From a virus, in the IMG/VR virus record IMGVR_UViG_3300008113_005797, positions 1-64,000 of that record: DNA of 64,000 nt. The stretch is one strand, 5' to 3'. Each line of letters starts with the position of its first letter. Position 1 is the stretch's first letter. Under the pieces are notes generated by a model. That model worked only from the letters and a program-made list of their open reading frames with translations. It ran no database searches and was not told the origin of the DNA. The position numbers and the translations under genes were made by a program. Positions 2,181-62,537 of this stretch are shown here, one piece after another.

Positions 2181-2395
2181 TAATATCCGCCTAAGCATTC
2201 GTTTCGAGTATGATAAAGTCTAATCTTAGTCATTGTCTTTTTGTTTGGTGCATATAAATCTTCTTTACAGCATCCACATTTCATATGCCATTCTCTAGCA
2301 AAGAAATCGTATACTGCACCTATATAATTTTTATACTTATTTGAAACAAATGTCTCAAATGGATCTGGTATCTCTAAGTTAATCATTTCCGCCAT
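2180..2395 (-). CDS. Small Cys-rich protein of unknown function, 71 aa
   Basis: Unrecognised protein. It contains CGCC followed about 25 residues later by HTRNEC, which could bind one zinc ion. I place the start at MAEMINLE (ATG at 2393-2395), because a longer frame starting at 2431 would run into the tRNA. The ribosome site is weak (AGAAA). Its stop overlaps the dnaE start, so the two are probably co-translated. A role in replication is only suggested by position. Confidence 0.7.
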   Translation of the reverse strand: MAEMINLEIPDPFETFVSNKYKNYIGAVYDFFAREWHMKCGCCKEDLYAPNKKTMTKIRLYHTRNECLGGY

Positions 2396-5683: not shown

Positions 5684-6003
5684 TCTATTCCGCCTTGTTC
5701 TACCATCTTCTTCGTTTCTTCTAATAACAAACGACGCTTTTCTTTATCTTTTTCAATCTCTAATTTTAGCATATCCATTTTATCAAAATTATAAAAAAAG
5801 AACTGCAGTGGGTGTCCGTTTTTAGACAATCCAAAATAATATTCTAACAAATCTTTTGCACGGTCAAAACCAACACTATCAATTACATCCTGCATAGCCC
5901 ACTTTTCACGAAACTTGTTTATTGTAATTGTGCGTCCATATTTATCTTTGTATAAGTTTTGATACATTGTAAGTAAAATATAAGGCTCTCTGTTATTTGC
6001 CAC
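5680..6003 (-). CDS. Hypothetical protein upstream of the helicase, 107 aa
   Basis: Unrecognised. The sequence is predicted mostly α-helical, with aromatic clusters (FFFYNFDKMD) and a charged C-terminal helix (LEIEKDKEKRRLLLEETKK). Its stop overlaps the helicase start (ATGA type), so stoichiometric co-production is likely. Small helical proteins encoded directly before a replicative helicase are often loaders, but no loader motif is visible here, so this remains a guess. Confidence 0.7.
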   Translation of the reverse strand: MANNREPYILLTMYQNLYKDKYGRTITINKFREKWAMQDVIDSVGFDRAKDLLEYYFGLSKNGHPLQFFFYNFDKMDMLKLEIEKDKEKRRLLLEETKKMVEQGGIE

Positions 6004-6430: not shown

Positions 6431-6915
6431 TATTCCGCCTTCCAAACTGGTACAAACTTGCCTTCTTCTGTCTTAGTATACAATACTAAATTGTTTTTGA
6501 GAAGAGCTTGCACCTCTGCTTTTGATGGAATTTCTTTTGAGTGTCCTGAATCTAATATATGTTGGTGTATGTCTAATATGTTTTTTTGGTTAAACATATA
6601 CTGTGACCAGTTTTCGCTGTCTGGCTGTCCTATTGGATATATCTTTTGAGGAGTGGCCACTTTTTCATTTAATATATATTCTTGTATAGTTACCCTATGC
6701 TTGTTTAGCATAGAAGCAACTTCTACAACAGTATATGCAGTTTCCATATTTTTTTTAACCTGGGAATATGAGTACATGACTCTTTTCTTCTCTGGGTAGC
6801 ACCAAGCAATTATTTCGTCTTTAGATCTTGATGATTTTAAAACTTTATGTATTTTATCGTTTAAGAAGAAATACCGTAAGCTTTTTGATTTGCCGTTTCT
6901 TTTAGCTCCAGCCAT
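6430..6915 (-). CDS. Helix-turn-helix DNA-binding protein (MerR/excisionase-like)
   Basis: A 161-aa protein with a basic N-terminus (KRNGKSKSLRYF). A central winged-HTH signature, TVVEVASMLNKHRVTIQEYI, is followed by KVATPQKIYPIGQ, like the recognition helix and wing of MerR/excisionase-type domains. The C-terminal third is unassigned. It may regulate early genes or act at the replication origin, and the sequence does not decide between these. The start overlaps the end of the preceding zinc-ribbon gene. Confidence 0.72.
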   Translation of the reverse strand: MAGAKRNGKSKSLRYFFLNDKIHKVLKSSRSKDEIIAWCYPEKKRVMYSYSQVKKNMETAYTVVEVASMLNKHRVTIQEYILNEKVATPQKIYPIGQPDSENWSQYMFNQKNILDIHQHILDSGHSKEIPSKAEVQALLKNNLVLYTKTEEGKFVPVWKAE

Positions 6916-58214: not shown

Positions 58215-60149
58215 CTATGCACTAATATCTACCAGTTCGCAGTTTCCATCTGAGCTACAGGCGAGGGTAGCATTTGTAGAAGTTCCATCTTCTGTTTCGT
58301 AAAAAGAAAGATCTTCCCATCGAATGTTTTTAGGCATTTTTTCTACAAGAGCGTCATAGTCTTCTTTTGATACTTCTTGATATGGGGCCTGCTTGTATGT
58401 GTGTTCTGAGTGGGGAAGAAATGAAATTCCAGAAACTTCATCAAAGTTTTTGTATACCCAAGCTCCAACTTCCATCCATTCATCTTCTTTGACTGATACT
58501 GTAATTGATGGCTTATGCTCACACCAAGCACGTTGGTATACCAGCCAAATATTAAGGTGGTCAATAGCAGTAAGATCGTTTCTAACAATTGCACCTTCTG
58601 GTGCTTTTACTGGAAATGAAAACACATAGGTGTCATTTGGCTTCATGACATCATCTTCTACTGGGATTCCGACTTCCTTTAAAAATGTAGAAATTGGATC
58701 TCCTTTTGAGCCACGAACTGTACGAATGTAATATGGTGAATGCCATGGATGCATTCCTGAAGATACCCCGACCAATTGAGACACTGTTCCAGAAGGCTTT
58801 ACACAAGTAATAGCTGCAGACTCAGGAATCCCAATTTTCCTAGCCTCTTCTTGATTAACTTCTCTTGCTTTTTCACGAAGAGTCATCAAAAAAGCCTCTA
58901 GTGCTACAAGATCTTCTTTGCCAGACATGAACTTGTGCCCAAACTGCCCAGTTAAGGAAACTCCAAGCAATCTTTCTTCTTCTGTGTTGTCTTTCCAAAT
59001 TTTACGAAGGTACTTAAAGTCTGTTAGTGTTGATTGCCACGTACCAAGAATTGTTGCAAGCTCAACTTTACGCTGAATATCTTTTTTTGTATCGTTTTCA
59101 CGTAATACGACTTCTGAAAGATTACAAAACTGGTAAGGACGTAAAATAATTTCTGAGCATGGGTTAGTTCCGTAGTGTATATCTGGATCTCTTCTACCAA
59201 ACTTGGCTGCTTGGGCTTGAGCTGCGGCCACATTGTATATACCTCGTTCTCCTGACTTCGAGTCATATAAAGATTTCCATTCTGCAATAAATTGCTCCAT
59301 CTCTGGTTTGCGTGAATAGGCAACAGAGTTATTAGATAAAGCACGTTGTGGACTTTGCTCCCACCAATTACCTGACTTTGCTTGTGCCATCTCAATATCA
59401 TTTATATTAGACAAAGAAATCATTGCGGAACGTCTGACTCCACCTACCACCACAACTTCACCAATCTTACACATAATGTCATGACATTCGATTGGCTTAA
59501 GATTTCTTCCAACGGCATTTTTAAATTTAGAAATAGTAAAATCAAAAAGATTTACCAATGGCTGTGGTCCAGATGATCTTCCACCCATTGTTTTAAGTCT
59601 TGCGCCCGCAGGGCGAACCTTTGAAACATCAATTGCTGGAATATGTCCAGTCCATAGAAGTGCAAGAAGTTCTCTGTATGCTTTTGCCCACCCTTGCTTT
59701 GAATCTTCTACTACAATAACTGTATCTGATTTTTCTAGTTTTTCTGGGACGGAGGGAAGCTTGTTAATATACTTATACTCTACTGAAAACCCAACACCTG
59801 TTCCGCACATAAGAACATACATTGTTTCATCAAATGATCTTGGTGAATCGACTGGAAGAAATGCACAATTGTATCCAGCTACGTTGTCTCTTTCAAGCGC
59901 CGCTCCAGAAGTCATAACAGATCTCATAGAAGGCATAACATTTCGTTTAAACACAAACTCTTTTAGTTCCGCAACTAGTTTTTCACTTGGAACATAATTG
60001 TGATTTTCTTTTAAATGATTAGTCATAAAAGAAAAATATCTATCTACTGTTTCTCCCCATGTTTCTCTGCGACCTTCTGCTTCTACCCATTTTGCATATC
60101 TAGATAAAGCAATAAAATTTTCATAAGGATTTTCAATAGTTTGTGACAT
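58215..60149 (-). CDS. nrdJ: Class II (adenosylcobalamin-dependent) ribonucleotide reductase, monomeric type
   Basis: A 644-aa enzyme that reduces ribonucleotides to deoxyribonucleotides for phage DNA synthesis. Motifs: AGYNCAFLPVDSPRSFDETM (first active-site Cys), LMCGTGVGFSVE, GTNPCSEIILRPYQFCNLSE (radical Cys region), AITCVKPSGTVSQLVG, and a C-terminal redox pair in ACSSDGNCELVDISA. Length and the absence of a separate small-subunit gene fit the monomeric B12-dependent type, which needs no oxygen. It sits between virion and lysis genes rather than with replication genes. Confidence 0.92.
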   Translation of the reverse strand: MSQTIENPYENFIALSRYAKWVEAEGRRETWGETVDRYFSFMTNHLKENHNYVPSEKLVAELKEFVFKRNVMPSMRSVMTSGAALERDNVAGYNCAFLPVDSPRSFDETMYVLMCGTGVGFSVEYKYINKLPSVPEKLEKSDTVIVVEDSKQGWAKAYRELLALLWTGHIPAIDVSKVRPAGARLKTMGGRSSGPQPLVNLFDFTISKFKNAVGRNLKPIECHDIMCKIGEVVVVGGVRRSAMISLSNINDIEMAQAKSGNWWEQSPQRALSNNSVAYSRKPEMEQFIAEWKSLYDSKSGERGIYNVAAAQAQAAKFGRRDPDIHYGTNPCSEIILRPYQFCNLSEVVLRENDTKKDIQRKVELATILGTWQSTLTDFKYLRKIWKDNTEEERLLGVSLTGQFGHKFMSGKEDLVALEAFLMTLREKAREVNQEEARKIGIPESAAITCVKPSGTVSQLVGVSSGMHPWHSPYYIRTVRGSKGDPISTFLKEVGIPVEDDVMKPNDTYVFSFPVKAPEGAIVRNDLTAIDHLNIWLVYQRAWCEHKPSITVSVKEDEWMEVGAWVYKNFDEVSGISFLPHSEHTYKQAPYQEVSKEDYDALVEKMPKNIRWEDLSFYETEDGTSTNATLACSSDGNCELVDISA

Positions 60150-60266
60150 TTGTTATACGACCTTTTCTCCGCCTTGCGGTGCTAATTTTGAATGAAGTCC
60201 AAGTGTATCAAACTTTTATTTAGCGGTCTACCCCTTAAAATATTTTATTTATTTTAGTTGACTGAC

Positions 60267-62423: not shown

Positions 62424-62452
62424 TTGACTTAAGAACCTATTAAATATACACT
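62424..62452 (+). promoter_or_regulatory. Promoter of a candidate small RNA
   Basis: TTGACT (62424-62429), 17-nt spacer, TACACT (62447-62452), just after the methyltransferase stop. No start codon with ribosome site follows before the terminator, so the expected product is a non-coding RNA of about 80 nt. Confidence 0.55.
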
Positions 62453-62459
62453 TAACTTT

Positions 62460-62537
62460 CAGGTTGAGTAGCAATACTCCCTGTTAGAGCGCAAGCTCTT
62501 AAACCCCCAATCGGATCCGCCTCCAATTGGGGGTTTT
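62460..62537 (+). ncRNA. Candidate small structured RNA with two GCAA-tetraloop hairpins
   Basis: Hairpin 1 is CAGG-(TT bulge)-GAGTA-GCAA-TACTC-CCTG. Hairpin 2 is AGAGC-GCAA-GCTCT. Hairpin 3 is the terminator. Both loops are GNRA tetraloops, three stems follow without gaps of more than a few bases, and a promoter stands in front. There is no open frame of note. It could also be just the 3' leader of the methyltransferase mRNA. Confidence 0.5.
62504..62537 (+). terminator. Intrinsic terminator
   Basis: CCCCCAAT and ATTGGGGG pair around a 14-nt loop and are followed by TTTTCTAATTTTT. It ends the lysis-methyltransferase operon and the candidate RNA. Confidence 0.88.

Follow-up and report, generated by a model that had tools for sequence, protein, structure and literature searches.

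The 64,000-nucleotide stretch of viral DNA analyzed here (the window), part of a 69.6-kb viral record, was found to carry a compact unit predicted to be transcribed into a small RNA (62460-62537) with a length of about 75-80 nt. Judged by sequence comparison, both the RNA and the covariation of its stems are well supported, and the RNA probably serves as a trans-acting antisense RNA that represses the phage's own replication genes. Among freshwater relatives of the Stanwilliamsviridae phages, this RNA would constitute a widespread and apparently uncatalogued family. The phage itself was classified as an actinophage, since its portal and protease share approximately 48-59% identity with their counterparts in Streptomyces phages of the Stanwilliamsviridae, and its G+C content of 38% suggests a low-GC freshwater actinobacterium as the host. 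Nanopelagicales phages are on record (PMC10202952).

The unit is situated on the plus strand. Its -35 box (TTGACT, 62424..62429), which has the same position in relatives, is followed after a 17-nt spacer by a -10 box (TACACT, 62447..62452), with transcription expected to start at about 62459. Hairpin 1 (62460..62483) consists of four base pairs (CAGG/CCUG), a 2-nt bulge (UU), another five base pairs (GAGUA/UACUC) and the loop GCAA, and hairpin 2 (62486..62499) has the structure AGAGC-GCAA-GCUCU. Hairpin 3 (62501..62536), with U's after it, is an intrinsic terminator, and its invariant apical loop UCCGCC (62516..62521, within AUCCGCCU at 62515-62522) is the proposed seed. No open reading frame of at least 40 aa was found between 62421 and 62589, including on the strand opposite the unit. 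An earlier, sequence-only reading of the window, which had proposed a possible phage small RNA at this position, described the promoter boxes, the 5-bp GCAA hairpin, the terminator and the lack of a reading frame just as they were found here. The 9-bp GCAA hairpin that it also named does have nine pairs and a GCAA loop, but the stem is interrupted by the bulge rather than continuous.

Compared with dinucleotide shuffles, the fold of the whole unit is exceptionally stable (z = -5.7, with 0 out of 200 shuffles as stable), and hairpins 1 and 2 without the terminator gave z = -3.0 (3 out of 200). The promoter match by itself is at chance level in the region, where 18 were found and 19 expected; in relatives, a matching box pair was kept upstream of 82 out of 105 distinct versions. 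In one near-identical contig, IMGVR_UViG_3300008262_004662, the methyltransferase gene is missing its end and the next gene its start, together with the entire small-RNA unit, through either a genuine deletion or a misassembly.

Viral contigs were collected independently of the loop by way of the flanking oxygenase and methyltransferase, the reductase and the polymerase, and by two further patterns that contained the loop; after structural filtering, the first sets comprised 108 distinct versions. The small RNA thus recurs in more than 100 distinct versions among environmental viral contigs. There is one true copy per genome in 28 out of 30 long contigs, most second matches being the palindromic terminator of that copy read on its other strand. 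All polymerase-bearing contigs longer than 82 kb carry the small RNA, while many shorter fragments show none and are uninformative in this respect. Upstream of the unit lies one of a few small conserved genes. Its downstream neighbor is variable and can be an oxygenase, a 50-aa gene, a methyltransferase, tail genes, or else a gene in the opposite orientation. In these shifting gene neighborhoods, the unit would behave as an independent transcription unit. Two contigs (L004 and L024) have an identical small RNA, while their promoter spacers differ and their neighboring methyltransferases are 77% and 61% identical to that of the window, pointing to either exchange or strong constraint.

Covariation was analyzed in a model-fitted alignment of 96 distinct versions with 31 base pairs. 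Paired cells made up 95.6%, as compared to 76.8% in shuffles and 34-47% for slid structures. Two-sided changes were seen at 24 of the 31 pairs, including every pair of hairpins 1 and 2, and amounted to 520 cells against 136 in shuffles, with a covariation score of 0.529 against 0.188. The same three hairpins were recovered by RNAalifold. Although the structure guided the fitting of the alignment, which includes one row that is an opposite-strand echo, and although the sample was partly selected by the loop and the terminator GGG, these circumstances cannot account for effects this large in hairpins 1 and 2. The covariance check that had been suggested for the proposed RNA thereby comes out in its favor, and conservation and covariation together strongly support it.

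The conserved part of the RNA is not the one first emphasized. Twin GNRA loops had been taken to indicate tertiary contacts or protein binding, a suggestion that is not borne out by the relatives, as both loops are GNRA solely in the window, i.e. in one of the 96 versions. In the closest relatives the loop of hairpin 1 is UUCG or some other sequence, and that of hairpin 2 is GNRA in 29 out of 96 versions. Hairpin 2 as a whole is nearly free in sequence with retained pairing, and is entirely absent from several versions. Hairpin 1 keeps the frame GG-UY-GAG ... CUC-CC with its 2-nt bulge in most versions, around a variable loop, although it is a plain stem in one group. In a large subgroup (e.g. 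L054, L067, L140 and L217), hairpin 1 carries a second C-rich loop, GCAUCCCAC, which resembles the terminator loop (AUCC..CC).

It is instead the apical loop of the terminator, absent from the sequence-only reading, that is conserved. Because two of the collection patterns had included this loop, its conservation was re-examined at reductase loci, in a loop-independent sample of 80 loci obtained through the reductase protein. The small RNA was present at 58 of these, and 20 of the 22 loci without it have at most 4.3 kb of upstream DNA. In all 58 RNAs the loop is AUCCGCCU, as would suit a conserved unpaired seed. Fifty-six of the loops are found within GAUCCGCCUC and the other two within GAAUCCGCCUUU, where the closing pair is changed on both sides.

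The loop sequence UCCGCC is the exact complement of GGCGGA, and AGGCGGA turned up repeatedly in a scan of start regions for duplex formation. Four such sites, all on the minus strand, were identified in the window as candidate targets. One belongs to the ribonucleotide reductase leader (gene at 58215-60149), at 60168..60174 inside a mini-hairpin (CCGC-AAG-GCGG). The others are at the ribosome-binding positions of DNA polymerase III alpha (2186..2192, start 2180), a DnaB-like helicase (5689..5695, start 5683) and, as a possible target, a small ORF (6434..6440, start 6430). The identities of the polymerase, the DnaB-like helicase and the ribonucleotide reductase are supported by PHROGs and Pfam. 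With all starts pooled, duplex energies were not significant, nor was AGGCGGA enriched at ribosome-binding sites near the RNA gene (13, against 14 for AGGTGGA), the latter likely because, apart from the reductase, the proposed targets are encoded in other parts of the genome.

By reading 13 phage genomes piecewise, 134 gene families, each in at least four phages, could be scanned separately. In four of these families, namely DNA polymerase III alpha, the DnaB-like helicase and two small unknown proteins, at least half of the phages have GGCGGA at ribosome-binding distance. Permuted hexamers, GGTGGA and GGGGGA reached this level in none of the 134, with the overlapping AGGCGG as the sole exception. 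At a stricter cut-off (60%, at least four phages), GGCGGA had two families, GGAGGA three, and GGGGGA and GGTGGA none. Counted as genes at ribosome-binding distance in the 134 families, there were 45 with GGCGGA, 59 with GGAGGA, 13 with GGGGGA and 4 with GGTGGA. The difference between GGCGGA and GGTGGA has no parallel in their overall frequency, which is similar in a sample of genome pieces (128 and 117, respectively). Conserved complementary sites are accordingly present at the starts of genes encoded elsewhere, with coding overlap in two of the families.

A scan made family by family had picked out the leaders of the reductase and the polymerase, and the leaders of the individual families were also inspected. 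In those of the polymerase (80 loci, 40 of them distinct), GGCGG occurs in 34 out of 40, in several unrelated contexts, GGTGG, which can still pair with the loop by G-U, in two, and GGAGG in none. GGCGGA or AGGCGG was found in 65 out of 74 reductase leaders, distributed over the main family (59 out of 68) and a second cluster (6 out of 6). For the family of about 120 aa with the N-terminus MGDRANF, GGCGGA was present in 8 out of 9 phages. The small family that begins with MAKK or MSKS has it in 7 out of 10, or in all 10 if a 2-nt spacing is allowed. Five phages have tandem copies in the latter family, often as GGCGGA-A-GGCGGA, and in two phages the site comes directly after a promoter -10 box. 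Tandem GGCGGA just before the start of a small unknown protein gene is found at L636:15159, L652:9573 and L675:8406. Predicted duplexes between the loop and its targets have energies of -12 to -17 kcal/mol, as compared to -6 to -11 for the 16S tail at the same sites.

These figures should be read with the coding sequences in mind. For the polymerase and the helicase, the hexamer often coincides with Gly-Gly codons at the end of the gene before it. Since these phages encode Gly-Gly most commonly as GGCGGA (25%), conservation of the hexamer there may be partly a matter of coding. Among 12 polymerase leaders free of such overlap, GGCGGA was kept in eight and not in four. The MAKK/MSKS and MGDRANF families are cleaner cases. 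On inspection, the MGDRANF leaders differ in the final residues encoded by the upstream gene (T, K, M, E), whereas the preceding base remains G and the Ala codon remains GCG. The reductase mini-hairpin (60160-60185 on the minus strand; CCGC-NNN-GCGG) is conserved before the start in reductase loci, with the compensatory variants CGAC/GUCG (L398) and CUGCC/GGGCAG (L410), and 5 out of 58 reductase leaders are without GGCGG while the RNA loop is unchanged. Both observations imply that the mini-hairpin has some role of its own. As the RNA loop is invariant, covariation between loop and target cannot be demonstrated, and as the phages are related, the leader counts are not independent events.

According to the proposed mechanism, the unit would yield a discrete RNA, about 75-80 nt long and acting in trans on the phage's own messages. 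The terminator hairpin would expose 5'-AUCCGCCU-3', which could pair with 5'-(A)GGCGGA(U)-3' located in, or a short way before, the ribosome-binding sites of DNA polymerase III alpha, the DnaB-like helicase, ribonucleotide reductase and the two small unknown proteins, one of them with tandem sites. Such pairing would block the 30S subunit and lead to a joint drop in translation of the replication set, e.g. late in infection. Repression is expected because the loop would cover the ribosome-binding site. We infer the expression of the RNA, its pairing in the cell, the timing, and repression rather than activation.

A different, though unlikely, explanation accepts the small RNA as real but assigns its invariant loop to a protein or host RNA partner and regards the agreement between a C-rich loop and G-rich phage sites as coincidental. 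Protein-binding sites, too, typically show an invariant hexaloop with fixed closing pairs, and the loop somewhat resembles the 3' end of 16S rRNA (GGAUCACCUCC). The latter likeness is nevertheless within chance, being seen in 4-10% of random loops, and anti-16S mimicry was rejected as not significant. The loop's exact complement is furthermore not a conserved start-site motif in the small-genome actinobacteria tried as possible hosts, where no conserved gene with this complement was found as a target, and the enrichment concerns GGCGGA instead of the ordinary GGAGGA. It also seems quite unlikely that the RNA constitutes a second, phage-specific anti-Shine-Dalgarno, for which the replication messages have left GGAGG in favor of GGCGGA so that their translation depends, positively or negatively, on the RNA and no longer on the 16S tail alone. 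If this were true, there would be a dedicated translation-control code common to a whole group of freshwater actinophages.

We consider it improbable that pairing is activating, whether by opening the reductase mini-hairpin, protecting the messages or recruiting ribosomes as a substitute anti-Shine-Dalgarno. The reductase site does form part of a hairpin, some 18 nt upstream of the start codon, and the 16S tail pairs weakly with GGCGGA sites, but in the other target families the site is exactly where the ribosome must bind, favoring repression. A cis-acting leader or attenuator of the downstream gene, operating with read-through, would be in keeping with a promoter and terminator that precede a same-strand gene in the window and many relatives. 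This is very improbable given that the identity of the downstream gene differs among phages, often with an opposite-strand location, in a manner not fitting a riboswitch or attenuator, that this gene has its own TGGTATAAT promoter past the terminator in the window and relatives, and that the terminator stem itself covaries with no alternative antiterminator fold predicted. Lastly, the idea that the unit does nothing but terminate the upstream operon, and owes its conservation to this boundary role, is scarcely credible, for although the unit comes after the end of an operon and terminators are frequently conserved, the promoter is conserved directly before hairpin 1, hairpins 1 and 2 covary strongly, and a plain terminator has no reason to preserve an 8-nt loop while the stem changes.

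Known RNA families offered no counterpart. For the unit, no Rfam 15 family came up to its gathering threshold, and the only family reported in the window was a tRNA. The plasmid antisense RNA ctRNA_pGA1 (RF00236) was rejected at 16.1 bits in the window and 30.9 bits in one relative, against a gathering score of 45; its weak score comes from the terminator shape, and unlike in that system there is no opposite-strand gene here. A cis-encoded antisense RNA of the OOP/ctRNA type was discarded likewise, as the window has no opposite-strand ORF of at least 40 aa at the unit and the neighbors differ between phages. No match was obtained with blastn against cultured-phage records, and only one, at chance level, against plasmids. 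Scanning a bacterial genome collection with a pattern gave 27 matches, and searching 395 actinobacterial genomes with the model gave six weak ones (one of which was inspected), and a host homologue was rejected since these look like chance or plain terminators. A literature search of incomplete coverage found no description of this RNA.

Streptomyces phages do have an element in the corresponding place. Homologues of the gene that precedes the RNA were found in 84 Streptomyces phage records, and this gene is followed by an unannotated gap that shows conservation in 87 records. The gap contains TTGAC, a long bulged hairpin, a small hairpin and a terminator-like stem, without the UCCGCC loop, and the four Streptomyces phage polymerase leaders that were read are without GGCGGA. 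The element is a positional counterpart, not a demonstrated homologue. In the Streptomyces Stanwilliamsviridae phages (L322-L336) this conserved noncoding element lies in the gap before the HNH endonuclease gene and occurs in two places in most records, apparently in terminal repeats.

If the antisense reading is correct, a single phage RNA would coordinate the polymerase, helicase and nucleotide-supply genes through a common ribosome-binding hexamer, and an intrinsic terminator can double as a recognition element. The closest functional parallel is RegA of phage T4, a protein that lowers the translation of several T4 replication genes by occupying their ribosome-binding sites. The job would be the same, i.e. 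one phage factor acting on the phage's own replication genes, whereas here it would be done by a base-pairing RNA, and probably in bacteria without Hfq. C-rich loops directed at G-rich ribosome-binding sites are known from the RsaE and RNAIII types of Staphylococcus aureus and the 6C RNA of Actinobacteria, which, like the present RNA, have an intrinsic terminator and are expected to be Hfq-independent. Those RNAs are host-encoded and differ in sequence and architecture, while the present one has UCCGCC inside the terminator itself and phage genes as its putative targets. Among phage regulatory RNAs, OOP, VpdS, PreS, aQ and 24B_1 regulate phage or host genes (PMC12197685). The RNAs reviewed there belong to temperate phages and act in cis, or via Hfq on host and phage genes, whereas in the present case a conserved hexamer would link several replication genes across a group of freshwater actinophages.
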